The position numbers and the translations under genes are program-made. Positions 5,133-45,405 of a DNA stretch of 56,512 bases are shown piece by piece. The stretch lies in assembly GCA_012729535.1 (NCBI GenBank), contig JAAYCY010000050.1, positions 1 to 56,512 of the forward strand. The letters run 5' to 3'. Below the pieces are notes generated by a model. The model saw only the letters and a program-made list of their open reading frames with translations, did not search any database and was not told where the DNA came from. The stretch comes from Methanomicrobiales archaeon (GTDB taxonomy: Archaea; Halobacteriota; Methanomicrobia; Methanomicrobiales; Methanospirillaceae). The stretch's first letter is position 1. Each line of letters begins with the position of its first letter.

Positions 5133-5342
5133 ATGAAAATTAGTGCAAGAAATGCTCTCAAAGGAACAGTTAAATCTATAACAACCGGCCCTATTAATGC
5201 TGAAATTCTCATCGATATCGGTGGTGGAAATCTCATCACTTCAATAATCACTCATAAGTCCGTTGATAGTCTGGGCCTTACAGAAGGAAAATCGGTTTAT
5301 GCAATAGTTAAAGCAAGTGAAGTTTTGGTTGCCGTTGATTAA
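5133..5342 (+). CDS. mop: Molbindin (single TOBE/Mop domain)
   Basis: A 69-residue protein starting MKISARN and containing the Mop core LKGTVKSITTGP, EILIDIGGG and LGLTEGKSVYAIVKASEV. Molbindins assemble into oligomers that bind molybdate or tungstate oxyanions in the cytoplasm and buffer or sense them. The ATG at 5133 is chosen because GGAG lies 11 bases before it; an upstream in-frame TTG at 5100 has no such site. It precedes modBC on the same strand, separated by 183 bases without a gene. A close paralog is at 15025. Assignment is firm from length and motifs. Mo versus W preference cannot be told. Confidence 0.93.
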   Translation: MKISARNALKGTVKSITTGPINAEILIDIGGGNLITSIITHKSVDSLGLTEGKSVYAIVKASEVLVAVD

Positions 5343-5525
5343 TCACTAAAAAAAGTAACCTCTTTTTTCTAAATCGGTGAAAAATAAATAGCAGTTCGTG
5401 TTTTTTAGTTTTTCTCGCTCAAATTTGGTGGAATAAAAATAGTAGATTATCATAATCAATAAACTCAAATATGTGTATTCATGAATGGTACTTCAGAAAA
5501 ATCTTAAACTCCGGGTAGTCTGACA

Positions 5526-6347
5526 ATGAGTTTTACACAAAAAGGAACAAGGAATTCAAAAAAGTTGAAAACAACCATTGCTATTATTATTTTTGCCCTC
5601 ATTATTATCATTACCATTCTTTTTTTTACTCTCCCACTATTCTCCCTCCTTCTTCGGATTTCACCTGAAGATTTTATTGCTGCAATCCTTGATCCGGATG
5701 TCAATAACGCCATAATGCTCTCACTTATTACGGCAGCGATGGCAACAACGATTATCGTACTCCTTGGGACACCAATAGCCTATCTGAATGCAAGATATGA
5801 ATATCGTGGAAGAAATTTTGTTGAAACGCTGCTTGACCTGCCAATTGTTCTTCCTCCGTCCGTTGCCGGTCTTGCACTACTGGTTCTTTTTGGCAGGCGT
5901 GGGCTGATTGGAGGATTTCTCAATGATATCGGGATTACCATTATATTTACCACATTTGCAGTAGTGCTGGCCCAGGTATTTGTTGCAGGACCACTCTATA
6001 TCAGGCAGGCAAAAACTGCATTTGCAATGGTAGACCGGGTGTATGAAAATGCAGCCCGGACTCTTGGTGCCGGCCCGTTTGTAACGTTCGTTAAAGTTAC
6101 GATTCCCCTTGCGTGGACCGGACTTGTTTCCGGAGTAATTTTAGGATTTGCCCGGGGAATAGGGGAGTTTGGAGCAACTATCATGGTTGCCGGAAATCTG
6201 CCAGGAAAGACACAGACCATGCCACTTGCAATTTACGGGATGATGCAAAGTGATCTTACGGCGTCTATTGCCCTTTCAATAGTTCTTATTGCGATGTCGT
6301 GTATTATCCTCATCATCATCAGAATCCTTTCGGGGAGGTCGTCCTGA
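5526..6347 (+). CDS. modB: Molybdate/tungstate ABC transporter permease
   Basis: A 273-residue inner-membrane permease with a long first hydrophobic segment (residues ~17-45) and further segments spaced as in the ModB/WtpB/CysT family. The EAA-like cytoplasmic loop that contacts the ATPase is visible as AARTLGAGPFVTFVKVTIPLA, followed by GFARGIGEFGATIMVAG, the classic ModB stretch. The stop codon overlaps the ATG of modC (TGATG), so the two are translated together. The matching receptor gene, modA, is not adjacent but 8-9 kb downstream on the same strand. Tungstate rather than molybdate as substrate is possible. Confidence 0.93.
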   Translation: MSFTQKGTRNSKKLKTTIAIIIFALIIIITILFFTLPLFSLLLRISPEDFIAAILDPDVNNAIMLSLITAAMATTIIVLLGTPIAYLNARYEYRGRNFVETLLDLPIVLPPSVAGLALLVLFGRRGLIGGFLNDIGITIIFTTFAVVLAQVFVAGPLYIRQAKTAFAMVDRVYENAARTLGAGPFVTFVKVTIPLAWTGLVSGVILGFARGIGEFGATIMVAGNLPGKTQTMPLAIYGMMQSDLTASIALSIVLIAMSCIILIIIRILSGRSS

Positions 6348-7099
6348 TGCTTAACGCAACTCTGATAAAGAAATTACGGGATTTTGAACTGGATATTGAT
6401 TTATCGGTTAATGACGGAGAGGTCATGGTTCTTCTTGGAGAGAACGGGTCAGGAAAGTCAACGGTATTAAATCTCCTTTCCGGGCTGTTGGTTCCGGATG
6501 AAGGGAATATCATTCTGAATAATATTGAATTATTTTCCAGCGAAAAAGGGATCTTCGTTCCGCCTGAAGAGCGTAATATCGGGTATGTTTTTCAAAACTA
6601 TGCCCTGTTTCCCCACATGACCGTTTTTGATAATATCTCGTTCGGACTTCGGATGCGAAGGATTCCTAAAAATCAGTTTAACGAGGAAGTGGATCGTTTT
6701 CTCGAGGATTTAGGGATTGCGCATGTGAAATGCGAACGGGTTACCAATCTTTCCGGAGGACAACGACAACGAGTGGCTCTTGCACGTGCGTTAATTATCC
6801 GGCCACATCTTCTTTTGCTTGATGAACCTCTTACAGCATTAGATCAGTCGGCAAGAGAAAAGATAAGGCTTGAACTCCGGACACAATTAGTAAACAGTAA
6901 TCAGCCTTCGATTCTGGTTACTCATTCACTTAAGGATGCAAGAATTATTGGGGATAAAGTCATGATGCTGGAAAAAGGAAAGGTTATCTGGAGTGGAAAA
7001 GCCAGTGATTTGAAGTCATTATCAACGATACCTGACGATTCAGCAGTTAATTTCGTATCAGAAGAATATATCAGTTTTTCAGGAATTGCAATTGATTAG
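6347..7099 (+). CDS. modC: Molybdate/tungstate ABC transporter ATP-binding protein
   Basis: A 250-residue ABC ATPase. Walker A is GENGSGKST, the signature is LSGGQRQRVALARAL, Walker B is LLLLDEPLTALD, and the H-loop is VTHS. The start at 6347 (MLNATLIKK) is preferred over an in-frame codon at 6299 because GGGGAGG lies 8 bases upstream and the ATG overlaps the modB stop. No C-terminal TOBE domain is present, unlike long ModC proteins; two separate mop genes in the window may supply that oxyanion-binding module. It energises import through ModB. Confidence 0.93.
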   Translation: MLNATLIKKLRDFELDIDLSVNDGEVMVLLGENGSGKSTVLNLLSGLLVPDEGNIILNNIELFSSEKGIFVPPEERNIGYVFQNYALFPHMTVFDNISFGLRMRRIPKNQFNEEVDRFLEDLGIAHVKCERVTNLSGGQRQRVALARALIIRPHLLLLDEPLTALDQSAREKIRLELRTQLVNSNQPSILVTHSLKDARIIGDKVMMLEKGKVIWSGKASDLKSLSTIPDDSAVNFVSEEYISFSGIAID

Positions 7100-7259: not shown

Positions 7260-8972
7260 ATGGAAGAACAATATATGAAATGCTCTTTTTGTGAACGTAT
7301 GTGCGATATTCCTGAAGATATGAATGGCTATTGCAGGATGTACAGCAACAAACTCGGAGTGATAACAGAAAATTACCCTGATTCATACCTCAATGTATAC
7401 CCGGTCTCAAGTGAATCCATTCCACTTCTCCATTTTTACCCTAATGGAGCTTTCCTGCTAATCAGTACTATCGGATGTAATTTTGCATGTGAAGGATGTT
7501 ATTCAGAATTTCAGACAACACGCCCCGGAACATTACAGAAAGTGCTCACACCCTATAGTCCTGATGATATTCTTGGCCTTGCACGGGAGAGTAATTGTAT
7601 CGGAATCACGTTTTGTCTTAATGAACCAACGGTTTCCCTGCCCTCGTTTCTCCGGGTAGCAAAGGCGGCTAAAAAGGAGGGGTTGCTTGTTGGCTGTTCC
7701 AGTAATGGATACATGACCAAGGAAACACTGGAAAGAATAATCCCCTTCCTGGATTTTGTCAATATTGGTTTGAAAGGTTCAACAGATGATCGGTACCGGG
7801 AATGTGGTGTTCTTTGTGCCGATCCGGTCTATCGAAATGCCAGGATCCTGCATGAAGCCGGGGTGTGGATTGAAATCTCAACCATGTACCTGAACAATAG
7901 AGAAGACGAAGTTATCGGGGCTGCAAACCGTATTCGGGAAATATCTCCGACTATCCCTTTTCAGGTTATGCGGTTTATGTCACCGAATGAGGATCTCAAG
8001 GAACTTTCACCTGATCGGATACAGGGAGAAAACCTCTGTCTACGATTGCGTCAAATCCTTGATCATGTGTACCTCTTTAATACTCCGGCAACAACAGAAC
8101 TGGATTCCAGGTGCCCGATATGTAATGAAATAATTATTCACCGGGTATTTTTTGGTCCGATGGGTGCAAGAGTCCTTTCATGCATGCCAGACGGAGTCTG
8201 TTCATGTGGATATACATATCCCTGTAGGGGAGAAATACTGCCAATTCAGAATGAAGATTCTAAAATTCTCGGAGGATACAGATCAATTCTGGGAGTGAAG
8301 TATATAGCCAGGTATTTCAGGTTACTGGGAGTTACTGAAGATTCAGAGATAGACCAATTCTGCAATATAGTCATTTCTAACGGATATCTCCGGGCAATCC
8401 AGGAAGAAAAAGACAATGTAGACACCTTCATTTCAATGATCCGGTATCTGGCCTCTCTTGCCGGACAGGAAAATCAGGGTGAGCGAATCATATCATTTGT
8501 GACTTCCATTATTCAGGATGTGGAAAACAGGGTCCGGGGTCTTGATAGGCCACGGGTACTGATGGTTTTTTGTCATCCGCTTTCTCCCACATATGCAAGG
8601 AAGTTTGGAAGTATACAGGTTGAAATGGCCGGAGGATTCAGCCTGAATATACAGGAAGACTTTAAGGAGAGTGAGAATGCCGAGTATACGGTTTCTGAAT
8701 TAAACCGACTCAATCCGGATGTCATCCTGGTTTCAGGGCCATTTGCTCCTTCAATTGATACGTTTATTGCTACCTGCAACGAACTTGGCATATCCTGCCG
8801 GGCAATGAATGAAAACAGGGTATATCTCATGGACAGTGATAACATTACGGGGGATTTCGGCTGGCTTATCGGAATTTTGGATATAGCAAACCTTCTCCAT
8901 CCGGAGGTGTGTAATTATTCCCTGGAAGAGGAAAAGAAAAGGCTCGATATGAATACAGAATTATCTGGATAA
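7260..8972 (+). CDS. Radical SAM enzyme fused to the C-terminal lobe of a substrate-binding protein (paralog 2)
   Basis: A 570-residue paralog of the gene at 1375-3123 with the same layout. An N-terminal Cys set (C8, C11, C15, C25) is followed by the [4Fe-4S] SAM motif GCNFACEGC (C73, C77, C80), NEPTVSLPSF, NIGLKGS, and a knuckle CPIC...CSCGY near residues 300-325. The last ~190 residues resemble an SBP helix plus C-lobe (RPRVLMVFCHPL, VEMAGGFS, LNPDVILVSG, NLLHPEV). ATG at 7260 is used; an alternative ATG lies at 7275. A methyltransferase gene starts 14 bases downstream, so radical SAM and methyltransferase again form a pair. Cytoplasmic, substrate unknown. Confidence 0.85.
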   Translation: MEEQYMKCSFCERMCDIPEDMNGYCRMYSNKLGVITENYPDSYLNVYPVSSESIPLLHFYPNGAFLLISTIGCNFACEGCYSEFQTTRPGTLQKVLTPYSPDDILGLARESNCIGITFCLNEPTVSLPSFLRVAKAAKKEGLLVGCSSNGYMTKETLERIIPFLDFVNIGLKGSTDDRYRECGVLCADPVYRNARILHEAGVWIEISTMYLNNREDEVIGAANRIREISPTIPFQVMRFMSPNEDLKELSPDRIQGENLCLRLRQILDHVYLFNTPATTELDSRCPICNEIIIHRVFFGPMGARVLSCMPDGVCSCGYTYPCRGEILPIQNEDSKILGGYRSILGVKYIARYFRLLGVTEDSEIDQFCNIVISNGYLRAIQEEKDNVDTFISMIRYLASLAGQENQGERIISFVTSIIQDVENRVRGLDRPRVLMVFCHPLSPTYARKFGSIQVEMAGGFSLNIQEDFKESENAEYTVSELNRLNPDVILVSGPFAPSIDTFIATCNELGISCRAMNENRVYLMDSDNITGDFGWLIGILDIANLLHPEVCNYSLEEEKKRLDMNTELSG

Positions 8973-8986: not shown

Positions 8987-9766
8987 ATGACAAAATTAAC
9001 CGAATCGAATCCTTCTTTTGTTGACACTGAATTTGATTTTACGTCGGTTTTTAATGCCGAAGATTATCTGTATTTTTATGAACAGCATCTGAAACCGGAG
9101 TATACAAAAGAAGAGATCCAGTTTCTCATCCGTGAACTGCTTCTTGAAAAACCTGAAAAAATTCTTGACCTTGCCTGCGGGTATGGACGACATGCAAATT
9201 ATCTTGCCCGCTTTGGACATATTGTCACCGGGGTTGATAATAACCAGGATTTTCTAGATATTGCAGGAAAAGGAGCGAAAGATTCAGGGGTGGATGTCAG
9301 ATATATCTGTGAGGATTCCAGGAAATTCTCGTCTCCGGGTGAATATGATTGTATTATTCATCTCTTTAGTTCCTTTGGTTATTTTCCGGATGAAGAAAAT
9401 GAACTGGTAATACGAAATATCGCCGTTTCTCTCAATCCCGGTGGAAGGTTCTGTCTTGATATTCTAAACCGGGATGCATTTGTAAATGATTTTCCACAAT
9501 ATTCGGTTCTTGAAAAGAATGGAGATTTTATGATTGATCAGAACCGGTTCGAACCGCTCTCCGGAAGGTTGTATAATTCCCGTATCATCATCCGGGATGG
9601 AAAGAGAAAAGATACTCCTTTCTTCCTTCGACTCTATAATCCAACTGAAATTATTTCCCTTCTGAAACAGGAGGGACTGGTCCTGAAAAAGGTCTATGGC
9701 AATTGGGATAGCAAACCCTTTGATAGTACTTCAAAGAGAATGATCCTGATCGCTGAAAAACAATAA
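8987..9766 (+). CDS. SAM-dependent methyltransferase, class I
   Basis: A 259-residue methyltransferase with motif I LDLACGYGRH near residue 60, then GVDNN at the end of strand 2, HLFSSFGYF around motif IV, and LNPGGRFCLDI. Beyond the core it has a C-terminal extension rich in beta-strand (SGRLYNSRIIIRDGKRK) typical of the family with a small inserted sheet. It follows the radical SAM gene with 14 bases between, most likely one transcription unit, and converges on the methyltransferase at 9796. It is not closely similar to the copy A/B methyltransferases. Substrate unknown. Confidence 0.85.
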   Translation: MTKLTESNPSFVDTEFDFTSVFNAEDYLYFYEQHLKPEYTKEEIQFLIRELLLEKPEKILDLACGYGRHANYLARFGHIVTGVDNNQDFLDIAGKGAKDSGVDVRYICEDSRKFSSPGEYDCIIHLFSSFGYFPDEENELVIRNIAVSLNPGGRFCLDILNRDAFVNDFPQYSVLEKNGDFMIDQNRFEPLSGRLYNSRIIIRDGKRKDTPFFLRLYNPTEIISLLKQEGLVLKKVYGNWDSKPFDSTSKRMILIAEKQ

Positions 9767-9795: not shown

Positions 9796-10671
9796 CTATT
9801 TTCCGATTTTTTTCCGGTTGTCAAGGGCCCAGGCCATCATTCCCTTGTATGTTTCTGAATGCGTGGTATAGATCCCATTTTCAGAGCAGTTTTTGTAGTA
9901 TTCCATGATTTTATTCCGGTTTTCATCAGATATTTCATGTTTCATTTCCAGATAACCAATTGTACTGTTCGCTGCTTCCTCCCAACTCTGGTTCTGGTCT
10001 TCAGTTTTATGATTGATTTTTACTATCGGCTGAAATCCTAAGGTATAAAGGTACATAAAGGGATAAAAAAAACCGGCGGCAAAGAATTCCTGTTCCGGAA
10101 CTTTTTGTAAAATCCTGATGTATATATCGGGTGGAATTTTCACTGGATCCCTCCGTATAAAGTTGCTGTAATAACAATATTTCTTAGAACAGGATATCAT
10201 CCGGTCAAAGGTTTCAACATCCCGTATGCCCGGAGTAAATGATGCAATGACCAAATCAAATTTATTACGAAATTTCATGGTATCAATATCGGCGGTCCAC
10301 CATGAGCACTCGATAGGGCTGATAGAAAGGTCTTCGTTTTCTGCTGTTTCTTTTAGTCTCTCAAGCATTTTGGAGGATATATCCAGTGATGTTACCTTTG
10401 CCCCGGCCCTGGCAAGAGGTAATGTAAGAGATCCGGGACCACAACCGATATCAAGAACGGTGGCACCTTCCGGATTGAAACCCACTTCATCCAGTAGTTT
10501 AAAAAAATCAGCATCTTTTTGCTTTTTTCTTTTTTCTTCCAGATTCTTTCCAAAGCTGTCGGCACGTTTGTTCCATCGTTCTGCCTGTATGTCATCTGAA
10601 AGAAAATTAATTGTGTCTGCAGTGGAATTCCAGCAATTAATCCAGCATTGTACGTTCTCATCCTGTATCAT
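9796..10671 (-). CDS. SAM-dependent methyltransferase, class I
   Basis: A 291-residue protein with LDIGCGPGSLTLPLARAG (motif I) near residue 75 and SLDIS at the end of strand 2, preceded by a helical N-terminal cap of ~65 residues. Its closest relative in the window is the gene at 26755-27573, with which it shares the long N-terminal cap, the C/HSxW segment after strand 3 and a C-terminal region around LYTLGFQP. Together they form a subfamily distinct from the copy A/B methyltransferases. Convergent with 8987-9766, 29 bases apart. Upstream lies a relic of an SBP C-terminus, so an SBP gene once stood here as well. Substrate unknown. Confidence 0.85.
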   Translation of the reverse strand: MIQDENVQCWINCWNSTADTINFLSDDIQAERWNKRADSFGKNLEEKRKKQKDADFFKLLDEVGFNPEGATVLDIGCGPGSLTLPLARAGAKVTSLDISSKMLERLKETAENEDLSISPIECSWWTADIDTMKFRNKFDLVIASFTPGIRDVETFDRMISCSKKYCYYSNFIRRDPVKIPPDIYIRILQKVPEQEFFAAGFFYPFMYLYTLGFQPIVKINHKTEDQNQSWEEAANSTIGYLEMKHEISDENRNKIMEYYKNCSENGIYTTHSETYKGMMAWALDNRKKIGK

Positions 10672-10967: not shown

Positions 10968-11615
10968 TCATATGATTTTTTTTAGTTCCTCTGGATTATG
11001 CAGTATTTTTTCAGGGAATGCTTCACATAGTTCTTCTTTACTTCCATATCCCCAGAGAACACCTATTGATTTGAGACCGTTTTCATGAGCTGCCTGGATA
11101 TCAACTGCACGGTCACCAATCATTATGGCAGTTTTATCAATAATCTCATTTTCAAGGAGGAGCCGGAGTTGATTCGTTTTTTGTATCCCGTCATCCCCTC
11201 CGCTGATAAAAGAAAAGAATGTCAGTAATTGAAAGAGTTTAAGAATTTTCTCTGCGAAATCAACTCTTTTTGAGGTACAGATTCCCATAGGAATATTATT
11301 TGCTATGAGATATTGCAGAGTTCCATATATCTCCGGATAGAGGGTATTTTCAGCATATCCTATCCGGTTGTAATAATCCCGATAATGGCCGATAATATTT
11401 GAAATAAGCTCACTAGAATCAGAATTGATGATTTTTCTCATGATAATGTCAAGAGGTGGTCCAATATATTGAGCAACAGTACTCTTATCCATTTCCGGAT
11501 ATCCAAATGCCCCAATAGCGCAATTCAATGAATGGGTAATGCCGGTTAAAGGATCACTAATAGTTCCATCAAGGTCAAAGACGAGGAAATGATTGATACC
11601 TTTGAAATAATTCAT
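10968..11615 (-). CDS. HAD-superfamily phosphatase (phosphoglycolate phosphatase-like)
   Basis: A cytoplasmic hydrolase of ~215 residues. Motif I is VFDLDGTISDP, with the nucleophilic Asp at about residue 13. Motif II is the Thr of GICTSKR, and motif IV is GDRAVDIQAA with the metal-binding Asp. The helical cap between motifs I and II identifies subfamily I (Gph/PpaX-like). I start it at ATG 11615 (MNYFKGINH) because AAGGGA lies just upstream. A longer frame to 11672 adds 19 residues without a ribosome binding site. Substrate unknown; members hydrolyse phosphoglycolate, nucleotides or sugar phosphates. No strong tie to neighbours. Confidence 0.85.
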   Translation of the reverse strand: MNYFKGINHFLVFDLDGTISDPLTGITHSLNCAIGAFGYPEMDKSTVAQYIGPPLDIIMRKIINSDSSELISNIIGHYRDYYNRIGYAENTLYPEIYGTLQYLIANNIPMGICTSKRVDFAEKILKLFQLLTFFSFISGGDDGIQKTNQLRLLLENEIIDKTAIMIGDRAVDIQAAHENGLKSIGVLWGYGSKEELCEAFPEKILHNPEELKKII

Positions 11616-11717
11616 TTCCCTTAGCAAAATCACTCCCGGAAGGAATGGGACTGTAACTCTATCAATGTTCATAAGAGGTATTCTGTATATCGTTTATTCA
11701 GATACGTAATGGTTCTT

Positions 11718-11978: not shown

Positions 11979-12578
11979 CTATTTACATTTTATTGGCAAA
12001 ATTGATCTGAATTCCCTGATCTCATTTAGAATTTCCGGGATTACTTCAGACTGGGGGACAGAATCAATATCCACGATAACACTCTTTGGATAAGGCCATC
12101 TCTTTAACACATCATCCACGAAACAACTCCGGACAGTCCATATCATTGGAGGATGGTTCATTTCATACAGGAGATCAATACATCCGGCCCACATTACTCC
12201 GTTAAGTTCAAACCTTCCAACTTCATCAATTACCACAAGATCTGGTGTTCCTTCTTTTATTGGGTTGAGAATGGCATTACATCCAAAAGAAATGCCTGAA
12301 TTCCTGAAATAATACCTCCCATGTAATTCAGAATCATGAGTTGGTACTACTGAGCACAGTTCTTCTGACATTCCAGTATAAATATCAATCAGGTCAAATC
12401 CTGAACGAAGACTACCCTGGAAATATCCGGGAGCTACAATGCCACTTATCCGGATATCCTCATTTGAGAGTTTATCAAGAATCTGTTTAAGATAGGTAGT
12501 TTTTCCTTCTCCCTGTTCTCCGGTAATGATAAATAATGGCGAACGTTGGCCGGAAATCGCAGATATATCCTTATTCAT
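11979..12578 (-). CDS. P-loop NTPase, THEP1/DUF2478-like
   Basis: A 199-residue P-loop protein. Walker A is ITGEQGEGKTTYL, at about residues 17-28, and Walker B is PDLVVIDEVGRFEL, the acidic pair followed by GxxEL seen in THEP1-type nucleoside triphosphatases and related DUF2478 proteins, several of which occur in molybdenum-related clusters. GIVAPG after strand 2 is also characteristic. It follows the radical SAM gene at 12604 by 25 bases on the same strand and is likely co-transcribed. It could drive a metal- or cofactor-loading step, but the partner is unknown. Confidence 0.8.
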   Translation of the reverse strand: MNKDISAISGQRSPLFIITGEQGEGKTTYLKQILDKLSNEDIRISGIVAPGYFQGSLRSGFDLIDIYTGMSEELCSVVPTHDSELHGRYYFRNSGISFGCNAILNPIKEGTPDLVVIDEVGRFELNGVMWAGCIDLLYEMNHPPMIWTVRSCFVDDVLKRWPYPKSVIVDIDSVPQSEVIPEILNEIREFRSILPIKCK

Positions 12579-36608: not shown

Positions 36609-37646
36609 TTATGTCCACCCGACATCACGTCTTGCCATAATATACGCAAAAAATGGAACACCAACGATTGCCGTAAGAATTCCAAGTGGAATTTCTGCAG
36701 TAGTTGCATTCCTTGCGATATTATCGATAAGAATCAGATATGCTGCCCCCAAAAAGAAAGAAACCGGAATTAAACGGGCATTATCAGGCCCGACCATCAT
36801 CCGGCCGAGATGGGGGATCACGAGTCCTATCCATCCGATAATTCCACATATGCAGACTGAATACGCAGTAATCATCGTGGAGATAAGGATGAGTATGTAC
36901 TTCATCCTCCTGGTATCTACGCCAAGAGCTCCGGCTTCCTCATCCCCCAGTGAAAAAGCGTTAAGACGCCAGCCAATTATCATGCAATAGAGAGATCCGG
37001 GGACGATAAAAATGAATGCAAATAAGATGTCCGGCATTGAGACTGCACTCAGAGATCCCATAAGCCAGTACGTGATGGCAGGAAGTTTTGACGTAGGGTC
37101 AGCAACGAATTTTACCAGTGAAATAAGTGAAGTGAAAAAGGATCCCATGATGATCCCTGATAGGACCAGGACCAGTATCGACTCACCTTTGTATATCTGT
37201 GAAAGCAGTATCGCAAATCCGACGGACAATAATCCAAAAAAAAAGGCAGAACCTTCAATCAGGAGAAGCGGGAGAGAGAATAGTATTGCTACTGCTGCAC
37301 CAAATCCGGCTCCGGAAGATACCCCGAGGATGTCCGGAGAAACCATGGGGTTTCGAAAGAGGCTTTGATAAACAGCTCCAGCAACAGAAAGGCCACCTCC
37401 AATTAACAATGCTCCAAGAATCCGGGGAATTCGAATGTTGAAGATAACATTTGACTGAGCCTCTGTCCATGTTGGATCTGAATGAATCACCGGAGAAAAG
37501 AGAATTGTAAGTACCGTTATCGGATCGAGGGAGTATTGACCAATGAAGAGCGAAATAACTGCAAGAATGAAAGGGGAAAGAATAATGCATACTATCCCGA
37601 GGGATACCATGTTTTTTTCTACCCATCGGACCTGAACAGATACCAT
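36609..37646 (-). CDS. ABC transporter permease (FecCD/BtuC family)
   Basis: A 345-residue membrane protein with about nine to ten hydrophobic segments. Family marks are RIPRILGALLIGGGLSVAGA, FRNPMVSPDILGVSSGAGFG and ICGIIGWIGLVIPHLGRMM, plus GWRLNAFSLGDEEAGALGVD at the cytoplasmic coupling region. These are diagnostic of importers for iron chelates, haem and cobalamin. The stop abuts the ATPase start (TAAATG), so they are one operon, transcribed away from the fmd genes. No receptor gene is in the same operon; the receptors are upstream on the other strand and around 20,650-33,850. The substrate is not predictable from sequence. Confidence 0.94.
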   Translation of the reverse strand: MVSVQVRWVEKNMVSLGIVCIILSPFILAVISLFIGQYSLDPITVLTILFSPVIHSDPTWTEAQSNVIFNIRIPRILGALLIGGGLSVAGAVYQSLFRNPMVSPDILGVSSGAGFGAAVAILFSLPLLLIEGSAFFFGLLSVGFAILLSQIYKGESILVLVLSGIIMGSFFTSLISLVKFVADPTSKLPAITYWLMGSLSAVSMPDILFAFIFIVPGSLYCMIIGWRLNAFSLGDEEAGALGVDTRRMKYILILISTMITAYSVCICGIIGWIGLVIPHLGRMMVGPDNARLIPVSFFLGAAYLILIDNIARNATTAEIPLGILTAIVGVPFFAYIMARRDVGWT

Positions 37647-37850: not shown

Positions 37851-39224
37851 TCAGTTACAATGAACCGTAACTTCATCATTACATTTATTTATCCCGGAAA
37901 TTTGTTCCTGAAGTAATACTTCAATGCGGTCTGCAATACCTGATAGCACCTCTTCATCTGATAGCATACCTTCAGGCATATCAACAACTTTCCTATACTG
38001 GATTGGAACATTATCCATCCGGTACACAATCCCTGGAACTTCTACTCCGGATATTCCGACCGGGATATGAAGATCTGCAACCTCTGCTGCCATGCTCATG
38101 TTCGGATCGATAGTTATCCAGGTGTGTTTTTTCAGGTGCCGGACAGCATCAATCGGGAAATGTGCTGCTGCATCGGTTCCGATATTTATGAACAGATCAA
38201 TTTCATCACGGTTTGCAAGGTCTATCGTGCTGGTCTCTCCCGGATTCATATGGGCATGGTCACCTTTGGTTAAATCAAGACAGTAGGGGAATCCGTATGA
38301 CCAGCACCAGACACGATTTGCCCCGGCTACATTAAAATGACCCCGCATGGCCATAATAGACCATTTTGATATCTGGTTCAAATCCCGGGTAAGCGAGATT
38401 GCGATGTCAATATTGTGATTCCTGCCATCGGTATGCGTCAGGCCCATCCCAAAAAAGAAGACTCCGAATTTTGCTTGTTTTAAAATGCCTGCAACTTCAA
38501 GGATTGTTTGTTTTGGAATTTCTGCAACATTTTCCGGGATGTCCTTTTCATGACCATACATGACCATTCGGAATGCATTGAAGAGTTCATAATCATGTCC
38601 GGGCTTAACCTGGAGGTGGTAATCTGCAATTCCAGCGGTATCTGTTTTACGTGGGTCAACAACAATAACCGTACGTTCAACAAATCCATTCCCTTTGAAA
38701 AATCCCAGAGGATATATTGCATACCGTGACATGTGCCTTGGATGGGCATGGATGGGATTTGCACCCCAGTACAGGATTACATCAGCTCGGTTCTTCACCT
38801 CTCCAAGGGTGCAGCTTGGATACCCGTTATCAAAATGAGCGATCAAGGATGGGCCATGACAAATGGATGCACAATTATCAAGAATGCCACACCCAATTTC
38901 CATGAGTCGTGCAGCTTCCCGTTGTGCTTCACAGGTTGTGGATCCAAACCCGTACATGAGTGGTTTTTTTGCTGCAATTATTGCCTTTGCTGCATAATCA
39001 AAAGCTTCTTCGTAAGAGATCTCCTTCCATGATCCATCTGGCTGGCGAAGTCTTGGCCTTGTTATCCGGTCGGAACTGGTAGCCTGCAAAAAAATTTCAG
39101 TCCCTATTGCACAGGCATTTTCTACTTCAAGGATCTTTTTTCCGTCATCAGATACTACAACCCTCACATCGTCACATGAACAGCCACAATACGGACAACC
39201 AATATCTTCAAGAATTTTTGGCAT
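37851..39224 (-). CDS. fmdB: Formylmethanofuran dehydrogenase subunit B, second copy
   Basis: A 457-residue catalytic subunit of the enzyme that reduces CO2 to formylmethanofuran, the first step of methanogenesis. The N-terminal [4Fe-4S] set is CPYCGCSC with C38 (residues 10-38), and NCASICHG holds C122-H123, equivalent to the conserved Cys-His pair near the W/Mo in FwdB. It has Cys, not selenocysteine, at this site. It binds the bis-pterin cofactor together with subunit D. The start overlaps subunit D by 17 bases. It is the last gene of the fmd operon and a divergent paralog of the B subunit at 43661-44992, so the cell may make two isoenzymes. Confidence 0.95.
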   Translation of the reverse strand: MPKILEDIGCPYCGCSCDDVRVVVSDDGKKILEVENACAIGTEIFLQATSSDRITRPRLRQPDGSWKEISYEEAFDYAAKAIIAAKKPLMYGFGSTTCEAQREAARLMEIGCGILDNCASICHGPSLIAHFDNGYPSCTLGEVKNRADVILYWGANPIHAHPRHMSRYAIYPLGFFKGNGFVERTVIVVDPRKTDTAGIADYHLQVKPGHDYELFNAFRMVMYGHEKDIPENVAEIPKQTILEVAGILKQAKFGVFFFGMGLTHTDGRNHNIDIAISLTRDLNQISKWSIMAMRGHFNVAGANRVWCWSYGFPYCLDLTKGDHAHMNPGETSTIDLANRDEIDLFINIGTDAAAHFPIDAVRHLKKHTWITIDPNMSMAAEVADLHIPVGISGVEVPGIVYRMDNVPIQYRKVVDMPEGMLSDEEVLSGIADRIEVLLQEQISGINKCNDEVTVHCN

Positions 39225-39633
39225 CTGAAATCCATCCCATGCCTACTGCTTGAAAAATCAGTTCCTTTGCGCTGAGAACCTTTTCATGTGGTGCAGGAAA
39301 AACGCAAACCGGAAACCCGCTATACTGGGGAACACCGGTTGACTGGGTTTTACACGGGACAACCTGGTTAGCCCAGACACCCTGCCTGATATGGCAGATT
39401 CCCGGATTTAATGTCTGAATCCCACATATCGCTTTGACAACAACCTCGCCACACTCGCTTCTAACCCTGACCGGTGTGTTTTCCTCTATGCCCATCCTGG
39501 ACATATCAAGTTCATTCATCTCGATAACGCTGCAGGCATCGAAATATTCCCTGGAATTTTTGCCTTTTTCCATGGCAATACCCTCTTCAATTGACCGCTG
39601 GGTTATCATGGTCAGGGTTCGTTTTTGTGTCAT
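39208..39633 (-). CDS. fmdD: Formylmethanofuran dehydrogenase subunit D, second copy
   Basis: A 141-residue molybdopterin dinucleotide-binding subunit, in most other molybdoenzymes the C-terminal domain of the catalytic chain. It has LTMITQRSIEEGIAMEKGK, VRVRSECGEVVVKAI, GICHIRQGVWANQVV and STGVPQYSGFPV, all shared with the copy at 44995. ATG 39633. It forms the second D-B pair of the operon with subunit B and is preceded by a 92-residue gene. Confidence 0.94.
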   Translation of the reverse strand: MTQKRTLTMITQRSIEEGIAMEKGKNSREYFDACSVIEMNELDMSRMGIEENTPVRVRSECGEVVVKAICGIQTLNPGICHIRQGVWANQVVPCKTQSTGVPQYSGFPVCVFPAPHEKVLSAKELIFQAVGMGWISDAKNS

Positions 39634-39663
39634 GCTTTTTGCGTTCCTGTGGGGTGAAAGTGG

Positions 39664-39942
39664 TTACGGTAACGTTCCTATCAGTTCTATTGCTAATTCA
39701 TAGGGATTTTTCGGGCGTTCACTTCCGGTTTTATTCGTAAAAAAGGTGTGTGGATGAATGGTGTTTAACTGCTCAACACTGAGCTTATTAACTATACCCC
39801 TGGCAATTTCTTCTGCTTCCTTAGATTTGCCCGGATATTTAAGGATATATCCCATCCTGATATGCATAACCATTGCTTCTCGTAATTCCTCTTCGCTCAG
39901 CTTGTCAAAGGGTGTGTACTTTTCTACTTCGGGTTTGCTCAT
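39664..39942 (-). CDS. Small hypothetical protein within the fmd operon
   Basis: A 92-residue soluble, mostly helical protein with no Cys. The sequence includes FDKLSEEELREAMVMHIRMG and an ending PYELAIELIGTLP. It lies 30 bases before subunit D2 and 46 bases after the methyltransferase gene on the same strand, so it belongs to the operon. I do not recognise the family. A chaperone or regulator of the second D-B pair is possible from position only. Confidence 0.7.
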   Translation of the reverse strand: MSKPEVEKYTPFDKLSEEELREAMVMHIRMGYILKYPGKSKEAEEIARGIVNKLSVEQLNTIHPHTFFTNKTGSERPKNPYELAIELIGTLP

Positions 39943-39988
39943 TGATACCTCTGTAATGGGTATGTTCTCTCATCAGTGAAGAAAATAA

Positions 39989-41017
39989 TTACGCTCTTTT
40001 CTTTTCAGCCATGTGAATGGTTGCTTCTCCATATGGTGATCGAATCACACCGGTTTTTTGTATCATCAGAGCGTTTTTCTCACAAATGTCTTCGAATTTC
40101 TTTTTGTCTGCAAGCTGGTGGTACCGGGTATGGAGAGCTAGTTCAAGTTCATAAAGGCCTTGCATTCCGGTTCCGACAGGAGGTGCAGTAAACCAGTGGT
40201 TTGAAAGGAAGAGACCACCAGGCGATAGAGAGGATGCAACATTCTTCATTAGTTCATCCATGTTATCTTCCTGGGAATAGAGTGAGTGAGCGATGAGAAT
40301 AATATCGGATTGTGGACCAGAATATGTCATCATATCTCCGGATACTGCAGTAATCCGGTTATCCATTTTAAACCGGGAAATATATTCCCTTGCTATCGCG
40401 GTATCTATCGTTCCACATAGAACCGTTGCAGTCATTTCAGGATTATTCTGGCAGGCAGCGATTGCATACAAGCCGTGACCACCATTTATTTCCAGGAATG
40501 TCCGGGCATCAGAAAATCCTTCCCAGGTTTTCAGGATATTGGTAACATTCTGAATTGTTCCCCGGAGAGCATAGTTAGCCTGGGCTCTGGCCGATCCCAT
40601 GGATATATTATCAAATGCCTTTTTTTCTTCAGGTTTTGTCAGATAAACATCAATATCCTTCCAGGGTGAATCATCATTCGGGAGATTGATGATATAATCA
40701 CCCTGGTAAAAAGGACTTGTTTTGACAAAATTCATCTGGGCAGCAGGTGATATCGAAAATTCATCTCCTGCCTTTCTAACCATATCAAGGTAATAGAGCA
40801 TTCCAAGAAGACTTGTCATATATTCAGGTTTAACCCCGGTTCCTGCTGCAATTTTCTCCGGAGAGGCTGGTCCATTCTCCGCAAGCCACGAAAAGAGGTC
40901 AAGTTTTAGTGCAGCGCAAACCACCATGTATTCCTTGTAGACCTGGACGAGGTCATCTATGATCTCAATAATCGGCAGTTCCGGAATTTTCAGGATCTCA
41001 TTCATCTCAATACTCAT
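39989..41017 (-). CDS. O-methyltransferase-like enzyme within the fmd operon
   Basis: A 342-residue paralog of the protein at 33866-34906. N-terminal winged-helix dimerisation part (YKEYMVVCAALKLDLFSWL, YMTSLLGMLYYLDMV), then FVKTSPFYQGDYI, shared with KKSPYYQGDLI of the paralog, and a Rossmann domain with FLEINGGHGLYAIAACQ. ATG 41017 is preferred; ATG 41005 is an alternative and a frame reaching 41056 lacks support. Motif I reads EINGGHG where the paralog has DIGGGHG, a mild departure. An enzyme of this sort in a formylmethanofuran dehydrogenase operon is unexpected. Substrate unknown. Confidence 0.86.
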   Translation of the reverse strand: MSIEMNEILKIPELPIIEIIDDLVQVYKEYMVVCAALKLDLFSWLAENGPASPEKIAAGTGVKPEYMTSLLGMLYYLDMVRKAGDEFSISPAAQMNFVKTSPFYQGDYIINLPNDDSPWKDIDVYLTKPEEKKAFDNISMGSARAQANYALRGTIQNVTNILKTWEGFSDARTFLEINGGHGLYAIAACQNNPEMTATVLCGTIDTAIAREYISRFKMDNRITAVSGDMMTYSGPQSDIILIAHSLYSQEDNMDELMKNVASSLSPGGLFLSNHWFTAPPVGTGMQGLYELELALHTRYHQLADKKKFEDICEKNALMIQKTGVIRSPYGEATIHMAEKKRA

Positions 41018-41134
41018 GGCAATCACTGATACGCAACTTTGTGAAAAGTCAAACAAACATGTATGCTAACTATCTGCCTGAACATGTACCTTCCTGGGAA
41101 AATACAGCAGACACATTGAAAGAAAGAAAAAAGG

Positions 41135-41935
41135 TTATTTTTTCAGGTAAATATTACCGTAAATAATCTCGCCTTTCTTCTTTGTTTTCCGTTCTCCAAG
41201 GTCACCGATGAACTGGTCAAAGGTGTAGGTTGCTCCGTCAACTTCTTTCTCAACGGTTGCAATCTTTTTAAAGCCCGGTAGCGGATAGAGAATGTTTCCA
41301 AAGATGTATGCATCTCCTTTTACCATCTGTCCACCGACACGTCCTTCTACGTCTCCCTTAATGATGACGGTTCCACCTTCTGCGTGGGTCAGGACATGAA
41401 TAAATGCATCGCCTTCAATGATGATGGTTCCTCCGGTCATAGCGGTTCCGATATCATTTCCAGCCTTTCCTTTTACCCGGATAAGACCACCAGACATACC
41501 ACGCCAGTCTCCACGATATGCACTGCCGACATGGTTCTGGGCATCTCCCTCAATCAGGATCTCTCCACCTTCCATGGCAATGCCAAGGAAACTATCTGCA
41601 TTACCTTTTACGGTGATCTTTCCGCCGGTCATCCAGCCACCGATATACATATCGGTATCATTATTGATGACAATCTCACCAGCAGACATCTTCTGACCAA
41701 ACCGCTTCATCCGACGGACATCGCCGTTTACAACGATTTTCGTATCTGCTGCAGTCTCACCGGCCTTTCCATCGAACTTGAAGAAATCTCCAAGTTTCCA
41801 TTGGATTTTTCCTTCGTGTGCTGGAAGGGCTGCAATTTCTGCCAGGCTCTTTCCTGCAAACTGGTCAGGTGTTACATTGTAGCATTCAAGGAAGAGTTCA
41901 GGCTGGCTGGTCAAGGTCATTGTTACGGTTTCCAT
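41135..41935 (-). CDS. fmdC: Formylmethanofuran dehydrogenase subunit C
   Basis: A 266-residue subunit with the beta-helix fold of the glutamate synthase C-terminal domain. Repeats of the type GGxxxVxGxAxxxxG run through residues ~85-220, for example GGKITVKGNADSFLGIAMEG, GGEILIEGDAQNHVGSAYRG, and GGLIRVKGKAGNDIGTAMTG. It is the structural partner of subunit A. GGGGGA stands before the ATG. The only copy in the window, so both D-B pairs presumably share it. Confidence 0.95.
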   Translation of the reverse strand: METVTMTLTSQPELFLECYNVTPDQFAGKSLAEIAALPAHEGKIQWKLGDFFKFDGKAGETAADTKIVVNGDVRRMKRFGQKMSAGEIVINNDTDMYIGGWMTGGKITVKGNADSFLGIAMEGGEILIEGDAQNHVGSAYRGDWRGMSGGLIRVKGKAGNDIGTAMTGGTIIIEGDAFIHVLTHAEGGTVIIKGDVEGRVGGQMVKGDAYIFGNILYPLPGFKKIATVEKEVDGATYTFDQFIGDLGERKTKKKGEIIYGNIYLKK

Positions 41936-41948
41936 TCTTGTTTCCCCC

Positions 41949-43661
41949 TTATGCTACATCCAGTTCAATTGCCCGTGCATTGTGTACGTGTTCATCAAAT
42001 ACTGCATAGTTCTCAAGGTTAACGGTGTAATTCCTGGAGAACTTCTCCTTGATATCGTGCATAACCTGAGCATTCTCCGGCATGTTCACTTTTGTCCAGA
42101 GAGTGTACTTGGGTGGCTCTGCAACAATCTGACCATCCTTGACAACAACCACACCTTCTTTTAAGGTATACGCGGTGTTCTGGAATGCAGCTTCGATCAA
42201 TTCCGGATCAGACGGAAGCTTGTTTGCATCAAGGTTGTAAATGGCAATGTTGGCATCTGCTCCCTTTGTAAGGCTGTATATGCTTGATAAACCAAGAGCC
42301 TTTGCCGGACCTGCACGGGTCATCATAGCAATGTCATACAGACCAAGTTCACGATCCATTGAAGCGATGTTACTTGCAGCGATGACTTTGTCCTTCCACT
42401 TCATGGTGTCAAGGGTTGCTTCACGTGCTTTCTGGGACATGAGCCACTTAATGACACGGGGGTACCGGGTAAATGGTCCTGCATTCGGATGATCGGTGGT
42501 GATATGGACTCTCATCAGGTCTTTAGCATAGAGACCAATTTCAAGGCCGATTGCCCATTGAATGCCACAGACTTTGATATTCTTGTCATAGATGTACGGC
42601 ACGATACCTGATCCGGTCTCAAGTTCGACATCAACATTTGCCCACTTGATGTGGTTTAACTGGTTGAGGTGATACTCGAATGGACCATCTGCGGTCATCG
42701 TGGTCGTTTCATCAAGAGTAACCTGTCCTATGTCTACGGTAATATTTTTGTTACTGTTTACATAGTCCATGACTTCCTTTGCACCAGACTCAAAGTCTGC
42801 CCAGGAAGTACCCTTGTAGCTGTGGAACTGAAGGTGAGTGTTATGAAGAACCTGTTCTCTGCCAAACTTATTCTTGGCTTTTGTCCCCTCAGCAAGTTTC
42901 AGGGTATCGATGGTATCCTTATAGTTACCTGGATTTCCCAGATTGTTTCCGTGGATATGCACAGAGTGAGGAAGACCAAGGTACTCGTTGGCTTCGATAA
43001 GGCCTTTTACGATCTCTGCAGGAGTAATATCAAAGTACGGAACCGGGTCGTTAATGGTAGTACAATTCTCTCCCCATGCCCATGCTTCAGTTCCACCTGG
43101 GTTTACGACCTTGATACCAATACCCTTGGTTGCATTAAGCAGCCATGCAATGTATGCAGCATTGTTCTCAAGTTCCTTATTCTTAATATATTCAAAGCAG
43201 AACCAGTTGTTTCCAAAAACCGGCATTGCTGCCTGGTCAAGAATTGGTGTGTCACGGAACTCTTCATGCACGTGGGGTGCAAGGAGTGGTGGCATTGCTG
43301 CTTCGTTGGTAAAGGTATACCCCATGCGGGCGTATGCATAACCGGTTTTCCAGGTGGACGGAATGGAAAATCCCATCTCCATACGCTTACCCTGCTTGAG
43401 GATGCCTCCCCGGTATTCACCCCGGAAGAATTTGTCTTCCGGACGCATCTCACGACCAAGGTTTACCTTTGGTCCGGCAACGTGGCAATGTATATCAACA
43501 CCACCGGCCATTACAGTCTTGCCTGCTGCATCGATGACCTCTGCCTTGTTTGAGACTTTATCTACGATCTTACCGTCTTTTACTGAGATATCTGCCTTGT
43601 CTCCCTTTAATCCTGAAATTGGATCAAACACATACCCGTTCTTGATAATAAGTTCTGACAT
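41949..43661 (-). CDS. fmdA: Formylmethanofuran dehydrogenase subunit A
   Basis: A 570-residue amidohydrolase-type subunit that condenses formate, made by the B subunit, with methanofuran. The binuclear metal site begins with GGVDIHCH (H58, H60), with further His in VHIHGNNLG and THLQFHSY, and the Asp of TTDHPNAG. The ATG shares one base with the stop of subunit B (TGATG), so the two are coupled. One copy only in the window. Confidence 0.96.
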   Translation of the reverse strand: MSELIIKNGYVFDPISGLKGDKADISVKDGKIVDKVSNKAEVIDAAGKTVMAGGVDIHCHVAGPKVNLGREMRPEDKFFRGEYRGGILKQGKRMEMGFSIPSTWKTGYAYARMGYTFTNEAAMPPLLAPHVHEEFRDTPILDQAAMPVFGNNWFCFEYIKNKELENNAAYIAWLLNATKGIGIKVVNPGGTEAWAWGENCTTINDPVPYFDITPAEIVKGLIEANEYLGLPHSVHIHGNNLGNPGNYKDTIDTLKLAEGTKAKNKFGREQVLHNTHLQFHSYKGTSWADFESGAKEVMDYVNSNKNITVDIGQVTLDETTTMTADGPFEYHLNQLNHIKWANVDVELETGSGIVPYIYDKNIKVCGIQWAIGLEIGLYAKDLMRVHITTDHPNAGPFTRYPRVIKWLMSQKAREATLDTMKWKDKVIAASNIASMDRELGLYDIAMMTRAGPAKALGLSSIYSLTKGADANIAIYNLDANKLPSDPELIEAAFQNTAYTLKEGVVVVKDGQIVAEPPKYTLWTKVNMPENAQVMHDIKEKFSRNYTVNLENYAVFDEHVHNARAIELDVA

Positions 43662-44992
43662 CAGGCCTCACCCTTTGCTTTCAGTTCTTCCATACGGTCA
43701 GCGATCTTGTTCAGGAGTGTTTCATCATCCATGACACCTTCCGGTGGTTCAATGACTTTTCTGAACTGGATTGGCACATTGTCCATACGATAGACGATAC
43801 CACCAACATCAACACCACAGATACAGACTGGGATATGGAGGTCTGATATCTCTGATGCCATGTTAATGCTTGGATCGATGGTGACCCAGGGGTGCTTTTT
43901 CAGGTGTTTTACTGCCGGGATTGGGAAATGTGCTCCTGCATCGGTTCCAATGTTAATGAACATGTCCACTTCGTCACGCATTGCCATGTCAACCGAACTG
44001 GTTTCACCCGGGTTCATGTGTGCATGGTTCTGCTTGGTAAGATCAAGACAGTACGGGAACCCAAACGTCCATGACCAGACAACTCCGGGGCCGGTGATAT
44101 TGTAGTGACCCCGCATTGCCATTATGGTCCACTTTGAGACTTTGTTCAGGTCACGGGTAAGGGAGATTGCAATGTCGATGTTATGGTTTCTTCCGTCAGA
44201 GTGGGTCAGTCCCATACCAAAGAATACCGTTCCAAACCGGGCATTCTTCATGATCTCTGCAACTTCAAGGATCTGCTCCTTTTTAACTCCGGCAACTTCA
44301 TCGGGAAGGTCATTTCCATGGCCTTGGATGACCATCCGGAATGCATTGAAGAGTTCATAGTCGTGACCCTGTTTTATCTGCAGGTGGTAGTCTGCCACGT
44401 TTGCAGTGTCAGTAAAACGCGGATCGATAACAATGACAGTCCTCTTTTTCTGCCCTTTTCCAGTGAAGAATCCACGGGGGAAGATAGAGTACCGGGACAT
44501 GTGACGCGGGTGTGCATGTGCCGGGTTGGATCCCCAGTACACGATGACGTCTGCACGGTTCTTGACTTCTCCAAGGGTACAGGTCGGATATCCATTATCG
44601 AATATGGCAAGAAATGACGGTCCATGACAGATGGTTGCGCAGTTATCAAGCATGCCACCTGCAATTTCCATGACACGTGCTGCTGCAGCCTGTCCTTCAC
44701 AATTGGTTGAACCAAACCCGTACATGAGTGGTTTCTTCGCTTTGAGCAGGTGACGGGCGGTCCAGTCGATTGCTTCCTCGTATGAGATATCCTTCATTGA
44801 ACCGTCCGGCTGTCTCATCCGTGGAAGTTTAATTCTGTCTTTCGAGCAGCCGTGTTTGAATATTTCTGTGCCAATTGCACATACGTTCTCTACTTCAAGG
44901 ATATCCTTTCCGTCATCTGATACCGTTACACGGACATCATCACAGGAACATCCACAGTATGGACATCCAACATTCTCTATTACTTTCGGCAT
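43661..44992 (-). CDS. fmdB: Formylmethanofuran dehydrogenase subunit B, first copy
   Basis: A 443-residue catalytic subunit, highly similar to 37851-39224. CPYCGCSC at residues 10-17 and C38 bind the [4Fe-4S] cluster, and C122-H123 lie in NCATICHGPS. The C-terminal end is shorter and lacks the Asn/Cys-rich tail of the second copy. It starts two bases after the subunit D stop. With A and C it makes the complete core enzyme. Reduced ferredoxin is the likely electron donor; subunits F, G and H (polyferredoxin and iron-sulfur) are not in the window. Confidence 0.95.
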   Translation of the reverse strand: MPKVIENVGCPYCGCSCDDVRVTVSDDGKDILEVENVCAIGTEIFKHGCSKDRIKLPRMRQPDGSMKDISYEEAIDWTARHLLKAKKPLMYGFGSTNCEGQAAAARVMEIAGGMLDNCATICHGPSFLAIFDNGYPTCTLGEVKNRADVIVYWGSNPAHAHPRHMSRYSIFPRGFFTGKGQKKRTVIVIDPRFTDTANVADYHLQIKQGHDYELFNAFRMVIQGHGNDLPDEVAGVKKEQILEVAEIMKNARFGTVFFGMGLTHSDGRNHNIDIAISLTRDLNKVSKWTIMAMRGHYNITGPGVVWSWTFGFPYCLDLTKQNHAHMNPGETSSVDMAMRDEVDMFINIGTDAGAHFPIPAVKHLKKHPWVTIDPSINMASEISDLHIPVCICGVDVGGIVYRMDNVPIQFRKVIEPPEGVMDDETLLNKIADRMEELKAKGEA

Positions 44993-44994
44993 AA

Positions 44995-45405
44995 TTAATC
45001 ACCCTTCCATAATCCGACAGCACCCTGAACAAGCTCTAATGCTGTTTTTAATTTATCATTAGGAGCCGGTTCTACCGTTACCGGAAATCCACTGTACTGT
45101 GGTGCTCCGGTTGACTGGGTCCGTGGTGGAACAACCTGGTTTGCCCATACTCCCTGCCTGATATGGCAAAGGCCCGGGTAACAGGCCTGGCGACCAACTG
45201 TTGCTTTTACAACTACCTCACCGGATTCACTTTTTACACGGACATTGGTATTTCTCATGATACCAAGTTCTTTCATGTCCTGTTCGTTCATCTCGATGAT
45301 ACTGCAGGCATCAAAGTACTGCTTGGAAGTCTTTCCGATTTCCATGGCAATACCTTCTTCTACTGCCCGTTGGGTTATCATGTTTAACGTTTTGTTTGCT
45401 GTCAT
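44995..45405 (-). CDS. fmdD: Formylmethanofuran dehydrogenase subunit D, first copy
   Basis: A 136-residue molybdopterin dinucleotide-binding subunit and first gene of the fmd operon. ATG 45405 (MTANKTLNM) is chosen because GGGAGATCCT precedes it; the frame extends to a TTG at 45432 without a site. Shared marks with the second copy: ITQRAVEEGIAMEIGK, VRVKSESGEVVVKA, GLCHIRQGVWANQVV. Confidence 0.95.
   Translation of the reverse strand: MTANKTLNMITQRAVEEGIAMEIGKTSKQYFDACSIIEMNEQDMKELGIMRNTNVRVKSESGEVVVKATVGRQACYPGLCHIRQGVWANQVVPPRTQSTGAPQYSGFPVTVEPAPNDKLKTALELVQGAVGLWKGD

Follow-up and report, generated by a model that had tools for sequence, protein, structure and literature searches.

A gene cluster of a Methanomicrobiales archaeon as a candidate system for import and processing of a metal complex, most likely of molybdenum or tungsten

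The contig JAAYCY010000050.1 of a Methanomicrobiales archaeon (whole contig C37, 56,512 nucleotides, hereafter the window) carries seven class III substrate-binding proteins (SBPs), a single ATP-binding cassette (ABC) importer of FecCD/FecE type and three proteins in which a radical S-adenosylmethionine (SAM) half is fused to part of an SBP. We read the window, with a probability of about 0.45, as an enlarged version of a system, conserved among anaerobes, that imports and processes a metal complex, the metal being most likely molybdenum or tungsten (Mo/W). The window represents 1.8% of an assembly of 3.09 Mb in 86 contigs. Of 15 Peripla_BP_2 matches in the genome, 10 lie here, as do its only two DUF364 genes, so that the clustering is more than chance; one of the four strong FecCD matches of the genome lies in it. 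The receptor part is multiplied here, to seven SBPs and three fusions for a single importer, which suggests that several related ligands might be served by one permease. A preliminary description, made from the sequence of the window, had named the gene classes, and all of them were present by Pfam, ModA by NCBIfam and the second Mop by phmmer. Its counts hold as well: besides the fusions, the SBPs and the FecCD/FecE pair, there are seven methyltransferases (five class I and two of Methyltransf_2 type), two DUF364 proteins, two mop genes, FmdE, MoeA, modABC, an NTPase_1 protein, hydrolases and a formylmethanofuran dehydrogenase (fmd) operon.

The radical SAM-SBP fusion exhibited a CX3CX2C triad (C69-C73-C76 in RS3 numbering) that is invariant in 14 of 14 aligned fusions; four N-terminal cysteines (C4, C7, C11 and C21) and cysteines 281, 284, 310 and 312 are likewise conserved among them. 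In an AlphaFold2 model of RS3 (predicted local distance difference test 86.5, predicted TM-score 0.88), residues ~32-339 aligned to pyruvate formate-lyase activase (3cb8, Z 18.4), QueE and NifB, and residues 338-573 aligned to class III SBPs (4hn9, Z 21.8; CeuE, 19.4; MolA, 18.7). Both the motif and the pyruvate formate-lyase activase-like fold are those of the radical SAM superfamily. The best NCBIfam match of this half was TIGR04337 (AmmeMemoRadiSam), and membership of that family was rejected at 76.3, 106.4 and 109.3 bits against a cut-off of 220. In the SBP half, only positions 87-234 of the Peripla_BP_2 profile were matched, 216-223 of ~320 residues could be aligned, and residues 336-396 are helical in the RS3 model. 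Because of the partial profile match and the helical stretch before it, the fusion probably comprises one SBP lobe with a linker helix, a second lobe probably being missing. Kinship with the neighbouring SBPs can be recognised in the SBP half of RS3 (23% identity to SBP1 over 198 residues, 9e-13). None of the three fusions starts with an obvious signal peptide, as judged by eye and with no predictor, and two start directly with a cysteine-rich stretch; the fusion is therefore probably cytoplasmic.

Counted by matches spanning both halves, the fusion was found in 33/294 genomes of the window's own phylum, in 8/395 of the phylum of Desulfobacter and in 6/398 of that of Clostridium. The family is old and spans archaea and bacteria, and its tree of 41 rows needs three changes between the two. 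RS3 groups with the general, widespread core clade; a side branch unites RS1 and RS2 with relatives from Methanospirillum and a single genome of the same family. Methanospirillum provides the nearest named relatives of the fusions of the window.

We investigated the gene neighbourhood of the fusion family, a check that the preliminary description had proposed. The 51 fusion loci were reduced to 40 non-redundant ones at 80% fusion identity and compared with 40 control regions; L033 and L034, which are nearly identical to L055, and L044-L047, which have no fusion, had already been removed. Controls were hand-picked blind to content. Of the 15 carrier genomes used for them, 5 bacterial ones supplied 20 regions and 10 archaeal ones the other 20, so that part of the case genomes is represented. 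Some case loci were shorter than 20 kb (L036, for example, has 6 kb), which works against the finding. Distances to FecCD, ModA and FeoB within 15 kb were read by eye and the totals then used in the statistics. A class I methyltransferase was present in 33/40 fusion loci, a class III SBP in 27/40 and FecCD in 24/40, with DUF364 in 7, FmdE in 6, the NTPase in 4 and an O-methyltransferase in 3, against 0/40 controls in each case. Among 33 archaeal genomes, 26 have FecCD no more than 15 kb from the fusion. In 36/40 loci the fusion shares a same-strand run with one or more labelled genes; 30 of these runs include a methyltransferase, 21 an SBP and 18 FecCD, and the order SBP, methyltransferase, fusion, FecCD, FecE forms one same-strand run in L058, L059, L067 and L084. 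As the fusion, the class I methyltransferase, the SBP and FecCD/FecE recur together across phyla, the putative system for import and processing forms a conserved unit.

Among bacterial loci, a TonB receptor was also found in 9/18 with the fusion and in 0/20 controls, and the presence of this outer-membrane receptor points to a ligand for which porins are no simple way in. The recurrent partners together lend strong support to an import system. Locus L037, from a Desulfobacterales metagenome-assembled genome, comes near to being the window in condensed form: its same-strand run reads moeA-mt-MT-OMT-DUF364-TonB-SBP-FUS-SBP-CD-E (MT, methyltransferase; OMT, O-methyltransferase; FUS, fusion; CD-E, FecCD-FecE), and behind it lie genes for two more proteins, one of DUF3450 and one of ExbB type. 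In L035 (Clostridium thailandense, L035:4000-9630), P-loop proteins of NUBPL/ParA kind and of CbiA+4Fe-4S kind stand between FmdE-FecCD-FecE-SBP and fusion-methyltransferase-modABC.

The SBPs of the window, mutually 25-70% identical, all exceed the Peripla_BP_2 cut-off, and their best functionally characterised relative of solved structure is MolA of Haemophilus influenzae. The profile of the family matched 3psa at 6.1e-59 over positions 36-336 of 352, that is, with homology to MolA over its length; single-sequence phmmer also reached MolA from SBP2 (2.7e-21) and from SBP7. BtuF was matched at 6.6e-14 against 2.1e-40 for MolA, and ranks far below 4pag, 4ovk, MolA, 4hn9, YiuA and TM0189. The SBP family is thus not closest to BtuF, which counts against membership of the BtuCDF group. 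For comparison, four full-length SBPs encoded outside the window were searched against the PDB, a set that excludes the SBP of contig C6 (L143, which resembles SBP2 at 295 bits). None of the four reaches MolA at 1e-6, and their top matches were 4m7o, an iron-binding SBP, followed by BtuF; TM0189 (twice); and FepB of Veillonella. Another locus of the genome holds a BtuF-like SBP with its own FecCD/FecE.

Mo/W genes accompany the fusion. Any such gene was present in 14/40 fusion loci against 3/40 controls (p=0.0026). ModA lay within 15 kb of the fusion in 7/51 carriers, with 1.3 expected; without the window the count is 6/50 genomes against 1.2 (Poisson p=0.002), and for bacteria it is 4/18 against 0.26. 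This count includes G1064, where ModA is 13 kb away, and archaeal rows of at least 85 bits, of which the 33 genomes have 83; it leaves out G056, whose weak row at 11 kb from the fusion scores 49 bits. Same-strand runs show the association directly, as fusion-methyltransferase-modABC in L035 and as modABC-methyltransferase-fusion in L051, an archaeon of another family; moeA is in the fusion runs of L037 and L078, and AFOR adjoins the module in L041 and L075. Within Methanospirillum, L031 has the fusion-methyltransferase pair and modA-mop-modBC in one stretch, and L032 holds the fusion, an NTPase, a HAD protein, moeA, an SBP, MT_c and modCB-mop. In the window itself, the block from RS1 to RS2 is flanked by mop-modBC and mop-modA. 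The Mo/W link holds outside the window, with putative operons including modABC or moeA in four other lineages. The kinship of the window SBPs with MolA, which the four SBPs from elsewhere in the genome do not share at 1e-6, likewise favours Mo/W.

Three side observations concern Mo genes. In L038 (L038:7866-8978), a regulator-like protein with a helix-turn-helix and a PBP_like domain, the latter matching the C-terminal part of a MoeA fusion, adjoins modABC and the fusion operon, and a similar protein occurs in L043. Elsewhere in the window's genome, decayed SBP1-like and FmdE-like open reading frames (ORFs) adjoin mop and moeA (L146, G000:C69:1-10000), and an SBP of another branch lies 3 kb from modABC (L145).

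Several results weigh against our reading. In archaea alone the Mo/W association is not significant, either for the ModA excess (3/33 against 1.0 expected, p=0.08) or for any Mo/W gene (6/22 against 2/20, p=0.15), and 26/40 loci have no Mo/W gene in 20 kb. The fusions of the window share no operon with an intact SBP and the importer. YiuA, a siderophore-type SBP, shares the branch of the window SBPs, and we know of no ligand for their nearest relatives, 4ovk, 4pag and 4hn9. MolA has a low affinity for its ligand, a small anion (PMC4031551), and this is hard to square with TonB receptors and ligand chemistry. As to the type of ligand, TonB receptors favour a large complex and MolA kinship favours a small anion, oxyanion or thio-anion.

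Computation shows the domain composition, the conservation of the module, its TonB partner in bacteria, the relation of the SBPs to MolA and the proximity of Mo genes. Ligand identity, direction of transport, the chemistry and the holding of the imported ligand by the half-SBP are what we infer in the following scheme. A class III SBP would catch the metal complex outside the cell and the FecCD/FecE (type II) ABC importer would bring it in. In the cytoplasm, the SBP lobe of the fusion may receive the complex, which the radical SAM half and the partner class I methyltransferase would change or open by altering its ligand, and the metal would join the ordinary ModABC/Mop/MoeA pool. DUF364, FmdE, the O-methyltransferase and the NTPase would be accessories in some loci. 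A more specific proposal, which we hold to be doubtful, is that the radical SAM barrel of the fusion replaces one SBP lobe, so that the imported Mo/W complex would be clamped between the remaining lobe and the SAM/[4Fe-4S] site; radical chemistry would then open the complex while the partner methyltransferase caps the freed ligand. If true, this would be a route by which anaerobes, both archaeal and bacterial, could free a tightly bound metal from its metallophore. Methanogens and sulfate reducers need Mo/W, which may be scarce or sulfide-bound in their habitats, and no metallophore route for Mo/W in anaerobes was found in the titles and abstract starts of the open literature. A module of receptor, importer and radical SAM enzyme would give a concrete Mo/W route with ligand chemistry coupled to an ABC importer, and it gives DUF364 and FmdE a shared setting.

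Another metal may be carried by the same machinery. An iron (or nickel) siderophore-like complex could be imported, its ligand broken or capped by the radical SAM enzyme and the methyltransferase, with Mo genes near by chance or shared regulation. The TonB receptors adjoining the module, one of them best matched by a siderophore-receptor model below its cut-off, and the YiuA, CeuE and FepB-type SBPs among the structural neighbours agree with this; the enrichment of Mo/W genes near the fusion and the SBPs being closer to MolA than to characterised iron-siderophore SBPs do not. FeoB, taken as the iron contrast, lay within 15 kb of the fusion in 0/43 genomes, a modest contrast because 0.9 was expected. 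We consider this reading unlikely.

The kinship with MolA and the modABC and moeA genes sharing runs with the module would also suit import of free molybdate, tungstate or thiomolybdate in the manner of MolBCA, the fusion then serving as a cytoplasmic Mo/W carrier or sensor with no ligand chemistry. The full radical SAM cysteine set of all 14 aligned fusions leads us to expect chemistry, and a small anion needs no TonB receptor, which makes this version improbable. Uptake and remodelling of a corrinoid or tetrapyrrole, with the methyltransferases and the radical SAM enzyme acting on the ring, is a shade less probable still: the FecCD/FecE/SBP architecture is that of BtuCDF, and the models of CpaM, BchM and BchU match some of the methyltransferases, in every case far under the cut-off. 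Against it stand the far weaker match to BtuF than to MolA and the separate BtuF-like SBP with its own importer elsewhere in the genome. A search of 7 bacterial loci for a riboswitch hint to the ligand gave no Rfam match at curated thresholds, hence no cobalamin riboswitch. That the window is no single system, just a duplication hotspot for transporter and methyltransferase genes next to an fmd operon, is very improbable: pseudogenes and paralogs do occur and the O-methyltransferase insertion in fmd was seen just here, but the same module forms single runs in other phyla, with core parts in 0/40 controls, which largely refutes a hotspot for the core module; for OMT2 and the HAD, HD and alpha/beta hydrolase proteins it may hold.

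Supply of the metal to the enzyme of CO2 fixation, which the preliminary description had proposed as the purpose of the uptake-and-processing system, is not supported. Genes fmdA/B/C were near 1/40 fusion loci (L052) against 0/40 controls, and FwdB exceeded its cut-off in just 1 of 7 bacterial carriers searched (the genome of L043 excluded), so that a link to methanogenesis as a general feature was rejected. The O-methyltransferase paralog inside the fmd operon, proposed there as a physical link to the system, is present; no such gene occurred in 11 fmd regions examined in other genomes or in the 2 other fmd regions of this genome. These results favour a view of the fmd operon as a neighbour sharing the need for Mo/W, not as a part of the system. 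The machinery also occurs in bacteria, which make no methane. The preliminary description would have counted homologous clusters in genomes lacking any Mo/W enzyme link against itself; by this measure the link to formylmethanofuran dehydrogenase fails and a wider Mo/W link does not. Of the proposed system the conserved import unit remains, with Mo/W as a metal that is supported rather than proven.

The fmd operon of the window closes with a second fmdD (67% identical) and a second fmdB (72% identical) at 37851-39942, and OMT2 and a 92-residue ORF with no Pfam match separate the two fmd gene sets. A further fmd operon of the genome (L128, G000:C38:15001-35000) adjoins modABC and three moeA, with no SBP array.

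The features of the window are collected in Table 1. The preliminary description had placed all three fusions in the interval 5133-45405; all were found, one of them (1375-3123) outside it. It had also claimed an operon of SBP2, methyltransferase and radical SAM protein, whose parts are present and nowhere intact at one place: SBP2 and MT_d (23539-25280) have no adjoining fusion, and MT_a and RS3 (1375-3764) lie behind a decayed SBP2 copy. The position of that copy upstream of MT_a-RS3, together with SBP2-MT_d at 23.5-25.3 kb, suggests that one SBP-methyltransferase-fusion operon was duplicated and that the halves then lost different parts. A simple promoter scan gave 62 promoter-like sites against 58.7 expected, which is chance level, and no operon claim is therefore based on it. 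For terminator-like sites there was a slight excess (23 against 14.3, standard deviation 4.0), with one at 27655-27694 between MT_e and MoeA. A secreted-looking protein of 214 residues with six repeats of ~27 residues and no full-domain Pfam match is encoded at 22342-22986.

Table 1 Annotated features of the window, with positions, strand and supporting matches
Feature	Position	Strand	Evidence and remarks
RS3, radical SAM-SBP fusion, 582 aa	1375..3123	-	Radical_SAM 4.1e-14; Peripla_BP_2 5.2e-7, profile 93-233 only
MT_a, class I SAM methyltransferase	3120..3764	-	Methyltransf_25 1.9e-24; 70% identical to MT_d; overlaps RS3 start by 4 nt
Decayed SBP2 copy, two frames, inner part lost	3771..4168	-	phmmer SBP2 2.6e-38, 1.7e-8; 230-nt repeat 78% identical to 24216-24445
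Mop/TOBE protein 1	5082..5342 (stop-to-stop)	+	TOBE 7e-17 for ORF 5100-5342
ModB-type permease	5526..6347	+	BPD_transp_1 3.1e-14
ModC-type ATPase	6299..7099	+	ABC_tran 4.7e-38; position after ModB
RS1, radical SAM-SBP fusion	7260..8972	+	Radical_SAM and Peripla_BP_2; 55% identical to RS2
MT_b, class I methyltransferase	8987..9766	+	Methyltransf_25 2.2e-17; 14 nt after RS1; RS1-MT_b pair preserved in L031
MT_c, class I methyltransferase	9796..10671	-	Pfam; relative in L032 adjoins modBC
HAD-family hydrolase	10968..11672	-	HAD_2 1.4e-30
NTPase_1 family P-loop NTPase	11979..12578	-	8.9e-19
RS2, radical SAM-SBP fusion	12604..14472	-	Radical_SAM 1.3e-17; Peripla_BP_2 2.2e-4, below cut-off (21.2 bits vs Pfam cut-off 27.5), yet 55% identical to RS1; 84% identical to M. 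stamsii copy; true start probably near 14370-14400
Mop/TOBE protein 2	14968..15234 (stop-to-stop)	+	phmmer with Mop 1, 4.5e-29
ModA	15379..16209	+	SBP_bac_11 1.2e-45; TIGR01256 modA 135 bits, cut-off 62.5
Alpha/beta hydrolase	16545..17351	+	Abhydrolase_6 2.5e-7
HD-CE domain protein	17261..18100	-	1.1e-22
DUF364/DUF4213 protein a	18119..18976	-	1.8e-39 and 2.7e-14
FmdE-family protein	19023..19574	-	4.7e-32
Class III SBP 1	20656..21726	-	Peripla_BP_2 1.8e-29
MT_d, class I methyltransferase	23539..24192	-	5 nt after SBP2; same family as core-module methyltransferase
Class III SBP 2, core-module type	24198..25280	-	Peripla_BP_2 1.3e-19; family best matched by 4pag, 4ovk, MolA
Class III SBP 3	25530..26585	+	4.2e-32
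MT_e, class I methyltransferase	26755..27573	+	Pfam
MoeA	27732..28913	-	MoeA_N 1.4e-30, MoCF_biosynth 3.4e-28
Class III SBP 4	29110..30195	+	2e-16
Class III SBP 5	30345..31403	+	9.6e-12
Class III SBP 6	31548..32600	+	1e-29; 70% identical to SBP7
Class III SBP 7	32773..33855	+	4.8e-31; MolA 7.3e-27 by phmmer
OMT1, O-methyltransferase (Dimerisation and Methyltransf_2)	33857..34906	+	Pfam; 1 nt after SBP7; SBP-OMT-DUF364 order preserved in L056, L063; OMT-DUF364-TonB-SBP in L037
DUF364/DUF4213 protein b	34903..35814	+	4.5e-34; overlaps OMT1 end
FecE-type ATPase	35832..36608	-	ABC_tran 2.6e-30
FecCD-type permease	36609..37646	-	3.2e-83; sole importer permease of FecCD type in window
fmd operon	37851..45432	-	fmdD 44995, fmdB 43661, fmdA 41949, fmdC 41135, OMT2 39989-41056
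fmd operon, rear part	92-aa ORF 39664, second fmdD 39208, second fmdB 37851	-	

Parts of this picture are already known, namely the association of DUF364 with metal transporters and molybdate import of FecCD type. PMC2954201, the paper on Dhaf4260, describes DUF364 next to ABC transporters of several metals (Fe, W, V and Mo) and in 2010 proposed that it acts in metal chelation; the paper contains 0 occurrences of FmdE, radical SAM or periplasmic proteins. For the radical SAM-SBP fusion or the module, no paper was recognised among the titles and abstract starts of the open literature, subscription journals being outside this scope. AmmeMemoRadiSam enzymes have a radical SAM half alike, to which the fusion of the window adds an SBP lobe, and it scores far below the cut-off of that family. 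The nearest known counterpart of the importer is H. influenzae MolBC-A (HI1470-1472), which like the window combines a FecCD/FecE-type importer with a class III SBP; it has Mo/W as ligand and is described as a low-affinity importer of free molybdate, and the accessible part of PMC4031551 makes no mention of a radical SAM-SBP fusion, methyltransferase or TonB receptor for it. The window matches that type by a MolA-homologous SBP and by FecCD with FecE (35832-37646); binding of molybdate/tungstate is a further mark of the type. Chelate importers of the BtuCDF and FhuBCD type share the architecture and, in bacteria, have a TonB receptor in the run, as the module does; they differ in the branch of the SBP, and to their plan the system of the window adds a probably cytoplasmic radical SAM-SBP fusion.

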